Positions 14,009-62,094 of a DNA stretch of 64,000 nucleotides are shown piece after piece (position 1 is the first letter of the stretch; each line of letters starts with the position of its first letter). Origin of the DNA: Buttiauxella warmboldiae (GTDB lineage Bacteria > Pseudomonadota > Gammaproteobacteria > Enterobacterales > Enterobacteriaceae). The DNA lies in the NCBI RefSeq assembly GCF_003818135.1, contig NZ_RPOH01000003.1, positions 1 through 64,000 on the forward strand, read 5' to 3'. Both the position numbers and the translations under genes were made by a program. Below the pieces are notes generated by a model. The model ran no database searches. It saw nothing but the letters and a program-made list of their open reading frames with translations, and was not told the DNA's origin.

Positions 14009-16264
14009 TTAGAAGCGGAAGGTTGCCGTCGCAACCACCTGACGCTCTGCGCCCCAGAAGCAACCGTAAGTATTGAAGCAGCTGGCAACGTATTCACGAT
14101 CGAACAGGTTATTGACGTGAACAGCTACGTTGGAACCAGCCATGCCAACACGCGCCAGATCGTAGCGCACCAAGGCATCGACTACAGTATAACTTCCCAC
14201 TTTGAAGGAGTTCGCCGGGTCGCCATAGCTGGAGCCGGTAAAGCGTCCGCCAGTGCCTAAAGTCAGACCAGACAGTGCTCCATCAAAGAAGGTGTAGTCG
14301 GCCCACAGTGAAGCCATATGTTTTGGCACCTGTGCTGGCGTGTTGCCTTTGTAGTTGGTATCTGTGGTGTACTCAGCCTCGGTGTAGGTGTAAGAACCTA
14401 CTACGTTTACGCTCGCAGACAGTGCCGCTTTCGCTTCAACTTCAACACCACGCGCACGAATTTCGCCACCTTCAACCGAGAAGAATGAGCCCGCAGGGTC
14501 AGCCATCAGGTTGTTGGTTTTGGTGAGCTGATACACCGCGCCGGTCAGCACGACAGGACGGTCTTCCGGTACGTACTTCACGCCCGCTTCGTACTGTTTG
14601 CCTTTCGACGGCGCGAAGATGCTGCCATTCTGGCCCACGGTAGAAGCCGGTTCGAAAGACTCGCTGTAGCTGAAGTACGGGGTCACGCCGTTGTCGAACA
14701 GGTAGTTAACACCGCCGCGCCAGGTAAACTCGTTATCATTGCGCGAGTGCTGGACATCCTCTTCACGATCCAGCGAATCCTGCTCCGCCCAGTCGTAACG
14801 GCCGCCCAGGGTCACCAGCACCTTGTCCCACTGCGCCTGATCCTGCACGTACACGCCGGTCTGTTTCTGCTTATTCAGCACCCGGTAAGCCTTACCTGGG
14901 CCGGGGTGAGCGCCAAAATCAAAGTCACTGCGGTCAAGGTCATTGATATCCGATGAAGCCACAGAACCCGCCCAGCCAAACCAAGAGTTGATGTCGTTAC
15001 GCATGCGCATAAAGTCGACGCCAGTCAGCAGGGTGTGGTCCACGGAGCCGGTAGCAAAGGTGCTTTGCAATTGGGTATCAACCGCGAAGTTTTCTAATTT
15101 CTCGTAGTCGTCCACATAACGGCGCGTCAGGGTGTGGCCCCATTCTGACGGCGCGATGGTTGCGCATGGGCCGTTAGCCGGATCGCCGGTGTAAAGCGGG
15201 TCAGAACACATCCCATAACCGTACACGCTATTCTGCGACACTTTAACTTGCGCGTAACGCAGGTTCTGACGCACCGCGAAGGTATCGTTGAATTCGTGGT
15301 CGAAGCTGTAGCCGACCATTTTCTCATTACGAGAATAGGTGTTATTCTTCGCGCCTTCATTGAAGTCAGTAGACAGACGATCGCCGTTTGGCAGCGGTTC
15401 GACCGTTCCCTCTTTTGGTAGCCAGCCGTAGTAACCAGTTTCCGGTTCGTTCTGGAAGTAAGACAAGAAGGTAAAGTTAGTTTTGTCATCCGGACGCCAT
15501 GAGAAAGACGGCGCGATGGTATAACGCTGTTCTTCCGCGCCTTCCTGCTGTGCATTAGCTGAACGCGCCAGACCGGTTAAACGATATGAATACACGCCAT
15601 CATCATCCAGAGCATCGCTGAAATCAAAACCGGTCTGGAACAGACTATTTGTTCCCATTTTGAACTGAATTTCTTTCAGCGGCTCAGTGGTTGGGCGCTT
15701 ACTTACCATGTTCAACAAACCACCAGGGCTGCTTTTTCCGTACAGAACGGAAACCGGGCCACGCATGATTTCAGCGCGCTCCAGCATATAAGGATCTACC
15801 ACCGCGTCGTTATAGAAGTTGCCCTGCATCTTCATACCATCGAGGTAGTTATTCTGACTCTGACCATCGGCCGCAAATCCGCGAATCACCAAATAGTCAT
15901 AGGTATTTGAAGCACCACGAGTTCCTACTGCAACGCCTGGGGTATAGCTCAATGCTTCTTTCACCGATCTAGGTTGATGCAACGCCATCTCTTCGGCGGT
16001 CACCACAGAAATAGACTGAGGTACCTTTTCAATAGGCGTATCGGTTTTGGTCCCGGTAGCAGACTGACGCGCTGCGATCGTGGCCGCAGGTCCCCAGGAA
16101 CTTTCTTGCGGAGCTGTGGAAGAAACAGTGATGGTGTCTTCTTTGGTGGTTGTGTTATCTGCAGCAAAAGCGGGTACGCTCACGCCACTGACGGCGGCGG
16201 CAACAAAAAATGCAAGCTTACGGATTGAGGTATTAACTGGTTGTCCAGTAATTGAACGCGCCAT
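14009..16264 (-). CDS. fhuA: Ferrichrome outer-membrane TonB-dependent receptor FhuA
   Basis: FhuA is the 22-strand outer-membrane beta-barrel that imports ferrichrome using TonB energy and is a common phage and colicin M receptor. The precursor is 751 aa (E. coli 747). It has a signal peptide (about 1-33, ending AFAA), the TonB box EDTITV just after it, a plug domain (ATIAARQSATGTKTDTPIEKVPQSISVVT) and the barrel, ending in the terminal TATFRF. Surface loops around residues 280-340 and 430-480 differ most from E. coli, as expected from phage selection. The frame is open upstream, but MARS at 16264 is the family start. A Fur box overlaps the promoter region. Confidence 0.97.
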   Translation of the reverse strand: MARSITGQPVNTSIRKLAFFVAAAVSGVSVPAFAADNTTTKEDTITVSSTAPQESSWGPAATIAARQSATGTKTDTPIEKVPQSISVVTAEEMALHQPRSVKEALSYTPGVAVGTRGASNTYDYLVIRGFAADGQSQNNYLDGMKMQGNFYNDAVVDPYMLERAEIMRGPVSVLYGKSSPGGLLNMVSKRPTTEPLKEIQFKMGTNSLFQTGFDFSDALDDDGVYSYRLTGLARSANAQQEGAEEQRYTIAPSFSWRPDDKTNFTFLSYFQNEPETGYYGWLPKEGTVEPLPNGDRLSTDFNEGAKNNTYSRNEKMVGYSFDHEFNDTFAVRQNLRYAQVKVSQNSVYGYGMCSDPLYTGDPANGPCATIAPSEWGHTLTRRYVDDYEKLENFAVDTQLQSTFATGSVDHTLLTGVDFMRMRNDINSWFGWAGSVASSDINDLDRSDFDFGAHPGPGKAYRVLNKQKQTGVYVQDQAQWDKVLVTLGGRYDWAEQDSLDREEDVQHSRNDNEFTWRGGVNYLFDNGVTPYFSYSESFEPASTVGQNGSIFAPSKGKQYEAGVKYVPEDRPVVLTGAVYQLTKTNNLMADPAGSFFSVEGGEIRARGVEVEAKAALSASVNVVGSYTYTEAEYTTDTNYKGNTPAQVPKHMASLWADYTFFDGALSGLTLGTGGRFTGSSYGDPANSFKVGSYTVVDALVRYDLARVGMAGSNVAVHVNNLFDREYVASCFNTYGCFWGAERQVVATATFRF

Positions 16265-16291
16265 GATGGTTTCTCTGATGAAGTAACGAAT

Positions 16292-16320
16292 GATAACGTA
16301 AACGATAATTATTATTATGC
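16292..16320 (-). promoter_or_regulatory. Fur box of the fhuACDB operon
   Basis: The + strand reads GATAACGTAAACGATAATT (16292-16310), continuing into GATAATTATTATTATG. These are overlapping GATAAT-type hexamers of the Fur consensus, 28 bases upstream of the fhuA ATG, and match the E. coli fhuA operator closely. It predicts iron repression of the operon. Confidence 0.85.
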
Positions 16321-16419
16321 CCGCAGAATAATAGACGAAAGGGAAAGCGCATAGCAAGCAGATCACACTGCTTCACAGCGTGAGGGAATAATAATTAACC
16401 AGAGAAACAGCATGGATTT

Positions 16420-16457
16420 AACAAAAAAGAAAAGCCCTCGTTAAAAACGGGGGCTTT
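16420..16457 (-). terminator. Rho-independent terminator of mrcB
   Basis: On the minus strand an 11-bp stem AAAGCCCCCGT/ACGAGGGCTTT (one G-T pair; 16447-16457 with 16431-16441) is followed by TTCTTTTTTG. It lies 19 bases beyond the mrcB stop. Confidence 0.85.
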
Positions 16458-16475
16458 ATCAGAATACGGCAGGTA

Positions 16476-19010
16476 TTAATTCCCGCCGAACATATCCTTG
16501 ATCCAACCGGCAACACCATCACTTTTTTCTGGTTGCGGTTGCTGTTGTTGCTGCGGCTGTTGTTGCGGCTGCTGCGACGATTGATCAAACGGGTTATTGT
16601 TCTGCTCAATCTGCTGGCTTTGCTGACACAAGCCATCCGGATTGGTGGTCCACACTGGCAGCACACGATCGCTACCGCCGCCACACTGGAAGTAGCCCGC
16701 GCTATCAACGCCCATATCGACGATATCTTCCGGCGGGTTAAGCACCAGCGGTATTGGCGTCTGGTTTGCAAGGTAGCGCTGATAGAGCGACATCGCACCG
16801 CTTGCGCCGTACAGCCTGGTTGGCTGGTTGTTATCGCGTCCTACCCAGGTGATGGTCACTTCTTTGCCATCAATCCCGGCAAACCAGGTGTCCACGTTGT
16901 TGTTAGTGGTCCCCGTTTTACCCGCTAAATGCAGCTGCGGATATTTTCCGCCTAACGCACGCCCCGTCCCGCGAGCCATAACCTGCTGCATGGTATACAG
17001 CGTCATGTAGGCTGCCTGCGGAGGAACGGCCTGTTCGGCCTGCGGGAAGCTTTGATACAGCACGGTGCCGTCTTCGGCGATAACCGAACGCAATGCCGAA
17101 AGCGTGGCGCGATTACCGCCGCTGGCAATGGTCTGGAAGGCCTGAGCTACCTCAATCGGCGTCAGGTTCAGCGCCCCCAGCAACATTGCCGGAACCGGGT
17201 GAAGCTGCTCTTTCGGCACCCCAAGCTTAATCCAGGTATCGGTGACCGCAGGCAAGCCCAGCGCCATCCCCAGGTTCACCGTTGGCACGTTCATCGAACG
17301 CGCCAGCGCATCGACTAACATCACCTGCCCGCTGTAGCGACGATCGTCGTTCTGCGGTGACCACACTTGCCCATTCGGCTGTTTCAGGGCAATAGGCGCA
17401 TCGGCAATCCAGGTATTCAGGCGGTAGCTATCCGGCTGGCTTAACGCCGTCAGATAGGTCGCAGGTTTAGCCAGAGAGCCGATTGAACGGCGCGCCTGCA
17501 TCGCACGGTTGAAGCCTGCAAACTGTGTTTCTGAGCCGCCAACCATGGCGCGCACTTCGCCGGTCGAACGGTCAACAATCACCATAGCCGCTTCAAGATC
17601 TTTCAGCTTACGGGAAGTACGCAGTACCGGGATCCCTTCTCTCACCGCTTTTTCTGCCGCATCCTGGGAAACGGAGTCAAACGTAGTAAAGATCTTCACG
17701 CCGGACAGGTCTTTAACTTTATCGCCAAGTTTTGTCTGGAGTTCGTTGCGCACCATCTGCATAAACGCAGGCTGTGGCGAAATCACACCACCGCGCGGCT
17801 GAACACCCAGGGGGCGCGCGCTCAGCATGTCGTAAAGTTCCTGGTCGATAACCTTCTGCTCTTGCAGCAGGCGCAGCACCAGGTTACGACGCTCCAGCGC
17901 CAGTTTCGGGTTACGCCACGGGTTATAAATCGATGCGCCTTTCACCATGCCTACCAGCAGCGCCTGCTGGTCAAGGCTCAGCTCTTCTACCGGACGGCCA
18001 AAGTAGTAGAGGCTCGCCAGCGGGAAGCCGCGAATCTCGTTATCGCCGCTCTGGCCGAGATACACCTCGTTCAGATACAGCTCAAGAATGCGATCTTTAC
18101 CGTAACGCGCGTCCATGATCAGCGCCATGTACGCTTCGTTCGCTTTACGCCAGTAAGAACGTTCGCTCGACAGGAACAGGTTCTTAACCAACTGCTGCGT
18201 CAGCGTACTTGCGCCCTGCACGGTACGCCCGGCGGTCAGGTTCGCCAGCACCGCGCGGCCAATGGAGAAGAAGCTGATCCCATCGTGCTCGTAGAAATGG
18301 CGGTCTTCGGTGGCGATCAGCGTATCAACCAGCAGCTCCGGGAAACCGGTGCGCGGCACGAACAGACGCTGCTCGCCATTCGGTGAAGAGAGCATGGTTA
18401 TCAGGCGCGGATCCAGACGGAAGAAACCGAAGCTACGGTTGTTATCCATATTCTGGATCGATTCCAGATGGTCGCCATCAAACACCAGACGCGCGCGGAT
18501 CTGCCCTTCTTTACTGTCAGGAAAATCGAACGGACGGCGGATCATCTCGATGCTGTTGCCCTGCACCGTAAATTCACCAGGCCGCGTCATACGCGTCACC
18601 TGGCGGTACTGTGTGGCCTCCAGCAGGTTAACCATCTCTTTTTTGCTGTACGGCATATCCGGCTCAAGGTTGACCATCCGGCCATACACCGCCGCGGGCA
18701 GCTGCCAGACTTTGCCATCAATACGGCTGCGGATCTTCTGGTCAAGATAGACGCCGTAAATCACTAACAGCACTACAAAAACCACCAACAGTTTTACCAG
18801 GAACCACAGCCAGCGGCGTTTTTTACGCGGCGGGCGGCCGTTACCGCTGCCTTTTCCTTTACGTGGTGGCATCGGCTCCTCGTCATCATAGTCATCGTCG
18901 TAATCCGCATCGAACTCCTCTTCCCGGACCCGACGGCGGCTGACATTCTCTTTTACGGGACGTGTGGGTTTTCCTTTACGTCCAATCGGTTCGCGGTCAT
19001 TCCCCGCCAT
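16476..19010 (-). CDS. mrcB: Penicillin-binding protein 1B (bifunctional transglycosylase/transpeptidase)
   Basis: PBP1b polymerises and cross-links peptidoglycan and is activated by LpoB. From the ATG at 19010 the protein has 844 aa, as in E. coli: a basic/acidic cytoplasmic tail (1-60), one transmembrane helix (~64-87), the UB2H domain (~110-195), the GT51 domain with [10 protein letters not shown] (catalytic Glu near 233), the transpeptidase domain with [10 protein letters not shown] (nucleophile Ser near 510) and KTGTTNN, and a Q-rich C-terminal tail. A GGTGGAG ribosome site precedes the ATG. The frame is open upstream into hrpB, so PBP1b could also be made as the tail of a HrpB fusion; the gene itself looks intact. 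Confidence 0.96.
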
Positions 19011-19089
19011 TGCTTTCTCCACCAAAAATAAGGCGCCAGGCCTGATTTTCCTTTCTTTCGCTAAACGCAAAAGAGGAAATCTCTCAAAG

Positions 19090-21521
19090 TTATTGGTACT
19101 TTTAGTGCGCCGCGTTGGCAGCGCATCTGCTGGCGAATCCGGCCAGACGTGCTTTGGATAACGTCCTTTCATCTCTTTTTGCACTTCCCGATACGCACCA
19201 TTCCAGAATGCGGTTAAATCACGCGTTATCTGCAAAGGTCGCTGTGCCGGGGAGAGTAACTCCAGCACCAGCGGCACACGGCCTTCGGCAATGGCCGGAG
19301 TCCGTGCTTCGCCAAACATTTCTTGCATACGCACCGCAAGAACCGGCGGGTTTTCATCATCATAGCGAATAGCTATCTGGCTGCCAGTCGGCACAGTGTA
19401 ATGAGTTGGTAGCGCACTATCCAGAAGCGCGCGCGCGTTCCAGTCGAGCAGATTCTGTAACGCCCGTGTGACATCAATAGTTTTTAACGCCCGCCACGAG
19501 TGTACACCATCAAGTTCAGGTAATAACCACCGCTCTAAATCGCGCAGCAGAGCCTCGTCCGAAACATCGGGCCATTGCCGTTCCGGCAACCAGCTTGCCG
19601 CGCAGGCGAGACGCGTTCTGAACTGTTGCGCGTGTGGCGACCAGTTCAGCACCGACAGACCTTTTTCACGAATACCGTTGAGCATCGCCTGATGCAGTTC
19701 GCCCGCAGAGGGTTTTGCCAGCGGCTGAACCTTCAGCACCAGTTTGCCAATCTGCGTGCGGCGAAACGCCTTTAGCGTCCCCAGCGCCTCATCCCATTCG
19801 ACGGAGTCACTTTCGCTCAGCAGCGACGGACGCTGAGCCACCAACGCCTCGATGTCCAGCGGAATAGCCTGCAGGATGCGCGCATCGGGCGTATTGCTGC
19901 CCTGTAATAACAGCGGCGCTAACAGCCATTCGTAGCGGGTTAAAGGATCGTCCTGATTAAGCATCGCACCCATACCGTTGGCTAACTGGTAGCGCCCATC
20001 CTGCCCACGGCGGCGAGCGATACGATCGGGAAAAGCCTGAGCCAGCAACGGCGCAGCGAGTGAGAAATCAGCCTCACCACCACGGCTGTTAACACGTTTC
20101 AGAAGCCGGGAGACGCGCTGCTGCCAGTTGTCCTGGCGTCGGCTAAATGCATTACGCAAATCGCTCTCCTGGCCACGCGGCGGCTCTTCAAGGATTGCCA
20201 CCAGTCGTGCCGCCGTAGCCTGTTCATCCGCGGTTTGCGCATTGACTAACATCGCGGCAAAGCGCGGTTCATTCCCCAGATCGGCCATTTTCTGGCCAGC
20301 CGGCGTAAGCCGGTTTTGCTCATCCAGCGCATTGAGCTTACGCAATAAAGCGCGGGCGGCAACCAGATTGGCAGCGGGCGGCGTATCAAGCCAGGTGAGC
20401 GGGCTCGGATCGGCACAGCCCCACTGCAGCAAATCGAGCAGCAGGCCGGAGAGATCGCTTTGCAGGATCTCAGGCTCGCTTTGCAGACTTGCGCGTTCTG
20501 CCTGCTCGGCGCTGGTTAAATGCAGACAGATACCCGGCTCCAGTCGCCCCGCGCGCCCCGCTCGCTGAATCATTGATGCCTGGCTAATACGTTGGGTGAC
20601 AAGCCGGGTCAGCCCGGTGCGCACGTCGAAACGCGCAACGCGCTCTTGCGCGCAGTCCACCACCAGGCGTATCCCTTCAATGGTCAGGCTGGTTTCGGCA
20701 ATGTTGGTCGCCAGCACCACTTTGCGTCTCCCCTTGTCCGCTGGCAGAATCGCTTTGCGTTGTTCACTTAACGGCAGTGCGCCATACAGCGGGCAAAGCT
20801 GAATATCGCTTGCGACACGTTCCTGTAGCTGCTGCTGAACCCGCTGGATTTCCCCCACGCCGGGTAAAAACAGCAGCAGCGAGCCTGCTTCTTCGCGCAG
20901 CAGATTTGCCACCGCAATCGCCACGGCCTCATCAAAACGCTGGTGTGCGGAAAGCGGGCTGTATCGCCGCTCAACGGGAAATGCCCGCCCCTGTGAACTG
21001 ATAACCGGCGCATCCGGTAAACATTGCCGGAGGCGTGAATTATCGAGCGTGGCCGACATAATCAGCAGTTTAAGATCGTCGCGTAACCCTTGCTGCACAT
21101 CAAGCAAGAGTGCGAGAGCCAGATCGGCTTGCAGGCTGCGCTCATGGAATTCATCAAGGATCACCAGCGCGATGCCTTGCAGTTCCGGATCGTGCTGCAC
21201 CATGCGCGTCAGAATGCCTTCGGTTACCACTTCAAGCTGCGTATTCGGCCCGATGCAGGTTTCAGCCCGCATCCGGTAGCCCACCGTTTCACCCGGTTTT
21301 TCACCCAATAATTCTGCGAGACGCTGCGCGACGTTCCGCGCCGCCAGCCGGCGTGGCTCCAGCAGCAGAATGCGGCCGCCTAAGTTTGCCTGCTGTAAGA
21401 TCTGCAACGGCAGCCAGGTGGATTTACCGGCCCCCGTTGGCGCATTCAGCAAGACCTGCGGCGCGTTGTGCAAAGCGTTAAGAAGAGCGGGTAGCACAGC
21501 GGCGACCGGTAATGACGGCAC
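19090..21521 (-). CDS. hrpB: ATP-dependent RNA helicase HrpB, stop lost by a one-base deletion
   Basis: HrpB is a DEAH-family (DEFH) RNA helicase of unclear physiological role. Walker [24 protein letters not shown], and QRAGRAGR are all present, with the HrpB C-terminal domain. The GTG at 21521 follows GGAG by six bases and fits the E. coli N terminus (SLPVAAVLP). E. coli HrpB ends RRTKKYS; here the text reads RRTKST and stays open into mrcB. Adding one A to the four-A run at 19100-19103 restores RRTKKYQ and a stop at 19090 (810 aa, E. coli 809). As written, an uninterrupted 1681-codon frame runs from 21521 to 16476. Real fusion or sequence error cannot be told apart here. Confidence 0.85.
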
Positions 21522-21595
21522 GAAAAGCTCCAAAAGGTTATCATCGAAAGTTCGCTATTGTAGCATCAAGCCAAACCATAACGAGAGAGAGCAAA

Positions 21596-22135
21596 ATGGC
21601 TGAGACTCGCCGTCTGTTTTTCGCCCTTCAACTACCCAAAGAGGTGCAACAGCAGATTATCCAGTGGCGCGCCACGCAGTTTCCTGAAGAGACCGGGCGT
21701 CCGGTGGCGGCGGAAAACCTGCATCTTACGCTGGCTTTTTTAGGAGATATTAGCGCTGAAAAGCAACAGGCTCTGAGCCTGCTCGCCGGGCGCATTCGTC
21801 AGCGTGGTTTTACCCTGACAATCGATGACGCAGGGCAGTGGGTGCGTTCAAATGTGGTGTGGATTGGCCCGCGCCATGCGCCTTTAGGGCTGATTCAACT
21901 GGCAAATATGCTACGCGCACAGGCGGCGCGCAGCGGCTGCTACCAGAGCCCGCAACCTTTTCACCCGCATATTACGCTTTATCGTAACACCACGCGGGCG
22001 GTGGCGATTCCGCCCCCCGGTTTTCGCTGGCAGTTTAAGGTTGAAGCGTTTGCGCTGTATGAGTCGGTTTTCAAACAAGGGCGTACGCGCTATCAGCAGC
22101 TGCAAAGCTGGTCATTAAGTAATAAGGAAGAGTAA
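21596..22135 (+). CDS. thpR: RNA 2',3'-cyclic 3'-phosphodiesterase (2H phosphoesterase)
   Basis: ThpR (LigT) belongs to the 2H phosphoesterase superfamily; it hydrolyses 2',3'-cyclic phosphate RNA ends and can reversibly make 2'-5' linkages in tRNA halves. Both catalytic H-x-T-x motifs are present, HLTL (near residue 42) and HITL (near 125), in a 179-aa protein (E. coli 176). The open frame runs back to 21512, but the ATG at 21596 follows GAGAGAG and gives the family start MAETRRLFFA. It is divergent from hrpB, and its TAA abuts the sfsA ATG directly. Confidence 0.93.
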   Translation: MAETRRLFFALQLPKEVQQQIIQWRATQFPEETGRPVAAENLHLTLAFLGDISAEKQQALSLLAGRIRQRGFTLTIDDAGQWVRSNVVWIGPRHAPLGLIQLANMLRAQAARSGCYQSPQPFHPHITLYRNTTRAVAIPPPGFRWQFKVEAFALYESVFKQGRTRYQQLQSWSLSNKEE

Positions 22136-22840
22136 ATGGAATTTAACCCGCCGTTACAGCAGGCCACGCTCGTTAAACGCTATAAGCGCTTTCTGGCTGA
22201 CGTGATTACGCCTGCCGGTGAAGAGCTAACGCTGCATTGCCCAAACACTGGCGCCATGACGGGTTGTGCCACGCCGGGCGACACCGTGTGGTATTCCACC
22301 TCTGACAGCCTGACCCGGAAATATCCTCATAGCTGGGAAATAACCCAGACGCAAAACGGTGAATTTATCTGCGTTAATACGCTACGCGCTAATACGGTGG
22401 TAAAAGAAGCATTAAGCGCGCAAGCCATTCCAGAATTAATTGGTTACACAACAATAAAAAGTGAAGTGAAATACGGTGCGGAACGCAGCCGCATTGATTT
22501 TATGTTACAGGCAGATTGCAAGGTTAACTGCTATATTGAAGTGAAATCAGTCACGTTATCACAACAGGGATGTGGCTATTTTCCCGATGCCGTCAGCCTG
22601 CGAGGGCAGAAGCATCTGCGAGAGTTGATGAATGTGGTTACACAGGGCGAACGCGCGGTGCTGCTGTTTGCAGTATTGCATTCTGCTATCACTCAGGTTT
22701 CCCCGGCACGCCACATAGACGCCAAATACGCACAGCTATTATGCGAGGCGCAACAGCGCGGAGTTGAAATTATCGCTTATAAGGCTGAACTTTCAGCCTG
22801 TGGCCTTACTCTAATTTCGCCGTTGCCTGTCTGTTTATAA
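22136..22840 (+). CDS. sfsA: DNA/RNA nuclease SfsA (sugar fermentation stimulation protein)
   Basis: SfsA was found as a multicopy stimulator of maltose genes and has a nuclease-like fold. At 234 aa it equals E. coli SfsA. Typical stretches are [22 protein letters not shown] near residue 38, and SRIDFMLQ...[10 protein letters not shown], which resembles a restriction-endonuclease-type D...ExK active site. It begins in the base after the thpR stop, so the two are co-transcribed and probably coupled. Natural role is uncertain. Confidence 0.94.
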
Positions 22841-23028
22841 TTTCTTAATACAGATCGGTTAACGTTTGTCTGTTTTGTGTGCTGGCGGTTCGCGTAAATA
22901 CGCTTTTCTTCACAGGCTTGTCAAGAGAGGAATTTATATAATTGCCATCCTGAAAAGCATCTGCTATTTATAGCGGCCTGATTTTCCCCCGAACAGGGGA
23001 CCGATAGTGCGTGTTAAGGAGAAACAAC

Positions 23029-23542: not shown

Positions 23543-23560
23543 CCAGCCTGCGCCGCCGAC

Positions 23561-24425
23561 ATGAATACATCCCACTACATTGGTCGCTTTGCCCCCTCAC
23601 CTTCCGGTGAACTCCATTTCGGCTCGCTGATTGCGGCCCTCGGCAGTTACCTGCAGGCCCGCGCAAAACAGGGCAGATGGCTGGTGCGCATTGAAGATAT
23701 CGACCCGCCGCGTGAAGTGGCAGGTGCCGCCACCACCATACTGCAGCAGCTGGAACATTACGGCCTGCACTGGGACGGTGAAGTTATGGCAGTCTCAGCG
23801 CCACGAAGCCTACCGTGAGGCGCTCGCCTGGCTGCATCAGCAAGGGCTGAGCTATTACTGCACCTGCACCCGCAGCCGAATTCAGCAGCTTGGCGGTTTT
23901 TACGACGGCCATTGCCGTACGTTAAATCACGGGCCGGAAAATGCCGCAGTACGCTTTCTACAACGCCACCCGGTATTAAGCTTTACCGATAAGCTGCACG
24001 GAACGCTAATAGCTGACGAGCAGCTGGCGCGTGAAGATTTTATCATTCACCGTCGCGATGGGTTATTTGCCTATAATCTTGCGGTAGTGGTGGACGATAG
24101 TTTCCAGGGCGTGAGCGAAATTGTGCGCGGTGCCGATTTAATTGAGCCCACCGTGCGGCAAATTTCGCTGTATCAACAATTTGGCTGGAAGGTGCCGGAT
24201 TACGTCCATTTGCCATTGGTGTTGAATGAGAATGGCGCAAAATTATCGAAGCAGAATCATGCGCCAGCCCTGCCAAAGGGCGATCCGCGCCCTGTTATTC
24301 ACGCCGCGCTGGCTTTTTTGCATCAGCCGGAAATCGCCCACTGGCGAGACCTGACGTTAAATGAGCTGCTTAGCGAGGCGGTGCAAAGCTGGTCGCTTGA
24401 GGCCGTTATGCCAGCATCGTCATGA
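23561..24425 (+). pseudogene. gluQ: Glutamyl-Q tRNA(Asp) synthetase, frameshifted
   Basis: GluQ-RS attaches glutamate to queuosine in tRNA-Asp; it resembles the GluRS catalytic core without the anticodon domain. The 5' part (23561 to ~23785) encodes [22 protein letters not shown] (HIGH-like) up to LHWDGEV. The 3' part continues in another frame with [16 protein letters not shown], the zinc-site-like YYCTCTR, and KLSKQN (KMSKS-like). E. coli reads DGDVLWQSQRH, so two bases are missing near 23784-23786; in the first frame translation stops at 23818 after 85 codons. Apart from this the gene is full length and conserved, so the lesion is recent or a sequencing error. Confidence 0.85.
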
Positions 24426-48253: not shown

Positions 48254-48752
48254 TCACATTCTTGACGCTAAAGTAACAAAGTATTCACCTTCTGTCCATA
48301 TTGGTTTTGATTGAAATCATTAAAACCGGCACATTTTAACAACATTACAGAAATGACGTTTCAAAACTGCAACCTTGAACAAATGTTACATTTACCCTTT
48401 AGCAGCGGCATTTAACCTTTACGAAACAGTAAAAACTGCCTTTTTTCGCAATCTGAACCGATTCACCTGAGCAAAATACGCATATTCATTCACAGGAGAC
48501 GCTTACATTGCATCAAGAGCCTCTGCAATCAATAACGTGATCGATCTGACGATTGATTTCTTTTTATTCAACTCGTCGCGACAGGCTTAGAAAGCAGGTG
48601 CAAACGCTGGCGCTTACCACTATTCTTTGCGTTGCGGAAGTCTGGTTTGCAAAATACTGGAATTAAAAACCGTAAAATAAAGACTACACATTACGGAATC
48701 ACAAACTTACAGAGGTGCAATCAGCACCCTGAAAATAACCATACGAGGTTAA
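48254..48752. promoter_or_regulatory. Long divergent regulatory region between pdhR and aroP
   Basis: No credible gene is seen in these ~500 bases, which are AT-rich. It must hold the aroP promoter. CGTAAA-ATAAAG-ACTACA (48671-48688) keeps the G-N14-C core of a TyrR box (TGTAAA-N6-TTTACA on the other strand) but is weak. TyrR control of aroP is known in E. coli; here it is only suggested. Confidence 0.4.
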
Positions 48753-59388: not shown

Positions 59389-62094
59389 TTAGCTTAAACG
59401 GCCATGACACTGTTTGTATTTTTTACCGGAACCACATGGGCATGGGTCGTTACGGCCCACTTTGCGTTCACCGGTTTCTGCGGCCAGTGCCTCAGCGGCA
59501 AGGGTATCGTCATCCTGGTGGCTCAGCTGTTGCATCTGTGCTAAACGCTCAGCTTCTTCGCGACGCTGCTGCTCCATTGCCTCGACTTCTTCAGGCATAC
59601 GAACCTGTACTTTGCTCAACGTGCTGATCACTTCATATTTCAGCGCTTCAAGCATGGATGCGAACATCGCAAAAGACTCGCGCTTGTACTCCTGCTTGGG
59701 ATCTTTCTGCGCATAACCACGCAAGTGGATGCCCTGGCGCAGGTAATCCATTGCCGCAAGGTGCTCTTTCCACAGTGAATCCAGAGTCTGCAGCATGACG
59801 CCTTTTTCGAAATGACGCATCATCTCCACGCCAACCACTTCTTCTTTACGCTGATACACTTCGATGGAGTTTTGCAAAATACGCTCGCGCAGCGTCTCTT
59901 CGTGCAGTTCAGGCTCTTTATCCAGCCACTCTTTAATTGGCAGTTCAAGATCGAAGTCATTTTTCAGGCGCTCTTGCAGGCCTTCAACATCCCACATCTC
60001 TTCCAGCGATTGCGGTGGAATGTGCGCGTCGATAGTCACTTTAAAGACATCTTCGCGGATGCTGTTAATGGTTTCGCTCACGTCGCTGACATCCAACAAT
60101 TCGTTACGCTGGCTGTAGATCGCGCGACGCTGGTCGTTCGCTACATCATCATATTCCAGCAGCTGTTTACGGATATCGAAGTTACGGCTTTCAACTTTAC
60201 GCTGTGCGTTAGCAATAGCCTTGGTGACCCATGGGTGTTCAATCGCTTCACCCGGCTTCATACCAAGCTTACGCATCATGCCGGAAACGCGGTCCGATGC
60301 AAAAATACGCATCAGGGAATCTTCCATCGAGAGGTAGAAGCGTGAGGAACCCGCATCGCCCTGACGGCCAGAACGGCCGCGCAGCTGGTTATCGATACGG
60401 CGAGATTCGTGGCGTTCAGTACCGATAATATGCAGACCACCAGACGCCAGCACCGCATCATGGCGAACCTGCCAGTCCGCTTTAATTTGTGCAATTTGCT
60501 CAGGCGTTGGGTTCTCAAGCTCGGCAACTTCTGCCTGCCAGCTACCACCCAATACAATATCAGTACCACGGCCGGCCATGTTAGTCGCAATGGTCACGGC
60601 AGCCGGGTAACCCGCCTGGGCAACAATGCCGGCTTCGTTGGCATGGAATTTGGCGTTCAGCACGTTGTGCTTGATACCCGCTTTGGTCAACTCCGCAGAC
60701 ACCACTTCCGATTTCTCAATGGAAATGGTCCCCACCAGCACCGGCTGACCGTTGATGGTACGTTCTTTAATGTCTTCGATAATGGCAGCAATCTTGTCTG
60801 CTTCGGTCATGTAGACCAAATCAGGCATATCCTTACGGATCATCGGGCGGTTAGTTGGCACCACGATGGTATCGAGCTTGTAGATAGAGCTAAATTCGAA
60901 GGCTTCGGTATCCGCCGTCCCCGTCATACCCGCCAGTTTTTCATACAGGCGGAAGTAGTTCTGGAAGGTGATGGAGGCCAGCGTCTGGTTCTCATTCTGA
61001 ATATCAACGCCTTCTTTTGCCTCTACCGCCTGGTGCAGACCATCTGACCAGCGACGGCCCTGCATCGTACGGCCGGTGTGTTCATCAACGATGATCACTT
61101 CGCCATCTTTCACGATGTAATCCACGTCACGGGTGAACAGCACATGCGCACGCAGCGCAGCCGTTACGTGGTGCATCAGCATAATATTAGCTGGGGAGTA
61201 CAATGACTCGCCCTCTTCCATCATACCTTCACGCACCAGAAGTTCTTCAACCAGCACCAGACCGCGTTCGGTAATGTTTACCTGACGCGATTTTTCATCC
61301 ACGGAGAAGTGGCCTTCGCCCTGGAAAGTATCGGAGTCTTCTTTTTCCTGACGGATAAGGCTTGGGATGATTGTATTTACTTTTCTGTACAGCTCAGAGC
61401 TATCTTCAGCAGGGCCCGAGATGATCAGCGGGGTACGCGCTTCATCGATCAGAATTGAGTCAACCTCATCCACCAGCGCGTAGTGCAGCTTACGCTGAAC
61501 GCGTTCTTCAGGGCTGAACGCCATGTTGTCACGCAGGTAGTCAAAACCGTATTCGTTGTTGGTGCCGTAAGTGATGTCAGCCGCATACGCTTCGCGTTTT
61601 GCCGGCGCGGGCATGTTTGGCAGGTTGATGCCAACGCTCAGGCCCAGGTATTCGAACAGCGGACGGTTATTTTCCGCATCGCGCTGCGCCAGATAGTCGT
61701 TCACGGTAACCACGTGAACGCCGCGGCCGCTTAATGCGTTCAGATACGCAGGCAGTGTTGCGGTCAGCGTTTTACCTTCACCGGTACGCATTTCTGCGAT
61801 ACAGCGATCGTTAAGCACCATGCCGCCCAGCAGCTGCACGTCAAAGTGACGCATCCCGAATACGCGCTTACTCGCTTCACGCACCACGGCGAAAGCTTCT
61901 GGGATCAGACTTTCCAGCACTTCGCCTTTTGCAAGACGCGCGCGGAACTCACCGGTTTTGGCTTTTAATTCATCGTCGGAAAGCTTTTCGATTTCCGGTT
62001 CCATGCTGTTGATAAGATTAACAACTTTACGCATACGACGCAGAGTACGGTCATTACGGCTACCGAAAACTTTAGTTAATAATTTGATTAGCAT
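59389..62094 (-). CDS. secA: Protein translocase motor SecA
   Basis: SecA is the ATPase that pushes unfolded preproteins through SecYEG. The 901-aa length equals E. coli. Walker [10 protein letters not shown] (near 103), [11 protein letters not shown] (near 210), the preprotein cross-linking domain, the second nucleotide fold ([12 protein letters not shown]), and the C-terminal zinc motif [13 protein letters not shown] that binds SecB are all visible. It follows secM by 67 bases; its translation is expected to rise when SecM stalls. Confidence 0.98.

Follow-up and report, generated by a model that had tools for sequence, protein, structure and literature searches.

The window, a 64,000-nucleotide stretch of Buttiauxella warmboldiae DNA, is part of a 199,969-base contig, C3, in a Buttiauxella draft assembly of 135 contigs and 4.3 Mb. 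On its minus strand, hrpB and mrcB (PBP1b) are read as a single open frame running from the hrpB GTG to the mrcB stop (Table 1); with an upstream TTG as the start, the same frame appears in the ORF list as 16476..21533 (-), 1685 aa. The HrpB half matched NCBIfam NF008662 over residues 1-809 (profile positions 1-811 of 813, 1405 bits against a cut-off of 1053) and the PBP1b half matched NF007061 over residues 838-1679 (1654 bits against a cut-off of 1120), and Pfam domains of both proteins were found in the joined frame. Across the joint the translation reads RRTKSTNNF...VEKAM, in which 30 residues separate RRTK from the PBP1b methionine. With both halves above their NCBIfam cut-offs, an earlier note on this DNA was exact in describing an uninterrupted 1681-codon hrpB-mrcB frame with a linker of about 30 residues, and its statement that mrcB has its own ribosome site fits the GGAG, a likely ribosome site, six bases upstream of the ATG at 19010. 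This start, the GGAG and a full-length match above the curated cut-off place the second half in the PBP1b/MrcB family. Otherwise hrpB, mrcB and the spacer are intact in the window and further decay is absent. HrpB lacks only its final three residues, those after RRTK, and alignment to the solved E. coli protein stops at about the same place.

Table 1. Features of the hrpB-mrcB region of the window
Feature	Coordinates	Strand	Evidence
Single hrpB-mrcB open frame (1681 codons and stop)	16476..21521	-	ORF list, profile matches
hrpB extent in relatives, ending at a TAA not in frame in this assembly	19090..21521	-	Sequence, profile, congener comparison
Four-A run, one base less than in 11/11 congeners	19100..19103	-	Congener alignment
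TAA where hrpB stops in relatives, one base out of frame in this assembly	19090..19092	-	Congener comparison
79-nt hrpB-mrcB spacer (mrcB leader), read as linker	19011..19089	-	Length same in 7/11 congeners
Likely ribosome site of mrcB (GGAG), six bases upstream of the ATG	19017..19020	-	Sequence reading
mrcB (PBP1b; 844 aa with its own ATG as start)	16476..19010	-	Profile matches

The end of hrpB was compared with that of 11 other Buttiauxella genomes. All 11 end in RRTKK followed closely by a stop at the usual place (RRTKKYQ in ten, RRTKKYS in one); this end is missing here and the frame runs on. Ten congeners have five or six A in the run and one has AAGAA, and the window was always one base shorter. 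In nine congeners ACT or ACC is followed by AAAAAG and TACCAATAA, while B. izardii (G006) has AAGAAG with TGA at the end of hrpB, and in G009 the run is of six A, the spacer is longer and the stop is TAG. By this comparison the difference amounts to a single base in a homopolymer run and is confined to this assembly. The proposal that a one-base loss removed the hrpB stop is therefore supported, since every congener is one base longer and keeps the stop, and comparison with close relatives, suggested as a check, found the joined frame in 0/11. One lost base explains the joined frame and nothing further is needed.

The two genes were also separate in wider comparisons. The hrpB stop could be read at 91 of the 93 loci, and no fusion was seen across 82 genomes (80 named contigs, G005 and G010); the remaining two loci, both in reverse, are the window's own place (L004) and one in G010 (L011), and the G010 stop was read in a separate comparison. 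Nine of the 80 named contigs belong to the congeners, leaving 71 further contigs, one of them titled uncultured Buttiauxella. HrpB_C was found in 158 of 246 family genomes, and among the 150 matches listed the joined frame was the longest at 1,692 aa, the next longest being 1,057 aa. The region was matched in 5,374 of 5,426 E. coli genomes, with hrpB and mrcB separate in the 20 matches listed. At four Klebsiella loci (L074, L081, L082 and L094) the stop was read and the stretch downstream of hrpB gave no mrcB match; the two genes may lie apart there.

Between the two genes, the relatives have a spacer of 78, 79, 81 or 144 nt, so that a linker is not kept in frame. The DNA of the 79-nt spacer is well conserved, as expected of a leader carrying a ribosome site. 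The PBP1b frame is shut by a stop inside the spacer in 7/11 congeners and is open past the hrpB stop in the other 4/11, where the genes would likewise be joined by the loss of one base. The spacer is mrcB leader DNA and no protein linker. In Buttiauxella sp. A111 (G009, L015 ~2108-2253) the spacer is 65 nt longer, the extra sequence following directly after the hrpB stop. For E. coli, the accessible part of PMC5493296 lists polymerase-binding sites for several sigma factors between hrpB and mrcB, so that mrcB is not bound to rely on hrpB and may have its own expression. Scanning of 18900-19400 gave a single promoter-like site, at 19387-19359 within hrpB, with no site in the spacer and no terminator in the same stretch. 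An RNA element was not found by Rfam at the gathering threshold in 15500-23000, and the tRNA search of the window gave none.

A survey of indels covered C3, C9 and most of C10 (197 genes, 214 kb) against stretches of three relatives, with B. izardii (G006) and B. noackiae (G008) added as further control targets. The four control assemblies were G006, G008, G010 and G003; G005 served as a reference and not as a target. After weak rows were dropped, private frame-breaking deletions were found in 4/197 genes of this assembly: hrpB, gluQ, cra and mltC, the last three named from relatives' proteins. Each of the four removes bases from a homopolymer run of 2-5 bases. The gluQ gene (glutamyl-Q tRNA synthetase; window 23560-24425, plus strand) has lost two bases from a T run near 23786, a deletion private to this assembly. 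Outside the window, cra and mltC each have a private one-base loss in a run of two bases, near 82490 and near 93896 (L105) of C3, respectively. The gluQ, cra and mltC orthologues are intact in the three compared relatives. All four deletions lie on C3, the source of 285 of 595 gene alignments. A single 3-kb query from contig C21 had no match in three relatives.

Whether this assembly has an excess of deletions over the controls depends on the treatment of weak rows, the p value ranging from 0.006 to 0.098. With weak rows dropped, the counts were 4/197 here against 0/513 control gene tests (p 0.006), the control assemblies overlapping in genes so that the 513 tests are not independent. The raw rows gave 8/197 against 8/513 (p 0.047), and counting three G010 events as real gave 4/197 against 3/513 (p 0.098). 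Against B. izardii alone (0/153 after dropping, 2 raw) p was 0.099. Four of the eight raw rows were dropped here: one in the poorly aligned ORF 57 (134 aa), two where ORF 175 diverges at its end and one in ORF 376 (103 aa). All eight control rows were dropped (two in G006, one in G008, two in G010 and three in G003); these fell in ORFs 57, 98 and 376 (103-134 aa) and at residue 45/804 of ORF 126, which was taken as an over-long start. A second survey, whose filter is blind to hrpB, gave five raw frameshifts in this assembly, three in G010, two in G003 and one in G005. Two of the five were dropped, one at 92364 (G005 has the same break; over-long start) and one at 91899 (short ORF). In the G010 stretch matching C10 (L170-L179), possible frameshifts were seen at joined positions 48733, 101665 and 109658, against two relatives each.

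Interior stops were also counted. The raw rows numbered three in this assembly, two in G010, one in G003 and three in G005. Row 82497 of this assembly stems from the cra break, and two stops were not traced to a frameshift, at 60866 and 61191 of C9 in ORFs of 139 and 169 aa; the pattern at 61191 is common to G010. As the two untraced stops compare with raw counts of two, one and three in the other assemblies, general decay was not seen.

From these comparisons we consider it probable that the joined frame is a sequencing or assembly indel, which is a likelier origin than a private mutation. One A would have been under-called in a five-A run at the hrpB end of the draft assembly. The hrpB gene of the organism itself most likely has the same end as that of the relatives and would be followed by the 79-nt leader and by mrcB with its own ribosome site. 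We infer that the losses in hrpB, gluQ, cra and mltC arose in base calling or assembly and not by mutation. In gene order, strand, ribosome site, full-length proteins and a spacer of the length found in 7/11 congeners, the locus resembles an ordinary Enterobacteriaceae hrpB-mrcB pair, from which it differs in that the hrpB stop is one base out of frame.

The case also resembles the homopolymer indel frameshifts of Ion Torrent drafts, which according to the accessible part of PMC12046094 occur mostly in A runs (mean length 5.5), so that runs of about five A are typical. Here too, one A is lost in a five-A run, and other conserved genes of the same contig are broken by small losses. Counting against error, cra and mltC each lost a base from a run of no more than two, a pattern less characteristic of homopolymer error. 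Of the sources seen in part, PMC6856666 states that B. izardii was sequenced on the Ion Torrent PGM by the Gothenburg collection, and the platform of the present assembly was not found in the parts seen of that paper or of PMC7046819, PMC7526173, PMC9882997 and PMC8928768. Since B. izardii, an Ion Torrent assembly, had no private deletion left after dropping, the platform alone is no explanation.

The main alternative is that the deletion is real: a recent, private one-base loss in the strain, near neutral and not spread, which we regard as possible though distinctly less probable. Run-on translation would then give a little HrpB-PBP1b of ~185 kDa, most PBP1b being made from its own ATG. The frame is clean through both genes, HrpB loses no more than three residues at about the point where the match to the solved E. 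coli protein ends, and the mrcB GGAG site is kept. The sigma-factor sites between hrpB and mrcB in E. coli, as listed in the accessible part of PMC5493296, likewise suit this alternative, since mrcB need not then depend on hrpB. The breaks in gluQ, cra and mltC could be real decay. Against it, the loss is common to no relative compared, and four small private deletions are accompanied by few interior stops. To our knowledge none of the four broken genes is essential in E. coli, gluQ, cra and mltC being dispensable there, so real mutations would fit as well. MutS and MutL look whole, with full open frames, so that a mismatch-repair mutator is not supported. We think it unlikely that the deletion is real and that the strain makes and tolerates some fusion of the DEAH helicase to the cytosolic tail of PBP1b; if it did, the strain would be a natural experiment on whether PBP1b tolerates a cytosolic cargo of 800 residues.

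It is highly improbable that slippage at the A run, programmed or phase-variable, toggles between separate HrpB and an HrpB-PBP1b fusion. AAA AAG resembles slippery sequences and is found at the site in 9/11 congeners. However, the preceding base in those nine is T or C, so the usual -1 heptamer is not formed, and a one-base skip would be required. The spacer is a multiple of three in 4/11 relatives, where such a skip misses the mrcB frame, and in 7/11 the PBP1b frame is shut by a spacer stop. A run of four or five bases is also short for phase variation. A programmed frameshift was rejected on the frames of the spacer and the base preceding the run. A fixed, selected fusion gene linking a helicase to a cell-wall synthase is topologically possible, the PBP1b N terminus being cytosolic, but we give it almost no credence, as the joined frame is the only one among the 150 family matches listed (no other exceeds 1,057 aa) and is found in 0/11 congeners and 0/80 named contigs, and the linker lacks conservation as protein. 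A real HrpB-PBP1b fusion protein, which the earlier note had entertained, thus lacks support: no relative compared shares it, the length of the leader read as linker shifts out of frame, and three more private deletions accompany the one in hrpB. A published hrpB-mrcB fusion was not seen in the literature consulted.

If the joined frame is an artefact, it is mainly a warning that the assembly as read yields a bifunctional protein of 1681 residues, which is probably not real, and also shows gluQ, cra and mltC as broken. If the base change is real, the fusion is private and probably tolerated. The finding is an ordinary one, and its main use is that it flags several conserved genes in which this assembly has either frame errors or genuine small losses.

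Three full-length FlhA-type genes were found in this assembly (on C13, C45 and C19) and one or two in each of the 11 congeners, with additional fragments in G004 and an additional sub-cut-off match in G003. The three genes agree with the three flagellar loci of B. warmboldiae CCUG 35512 given in the accessible part of PMC7526173.
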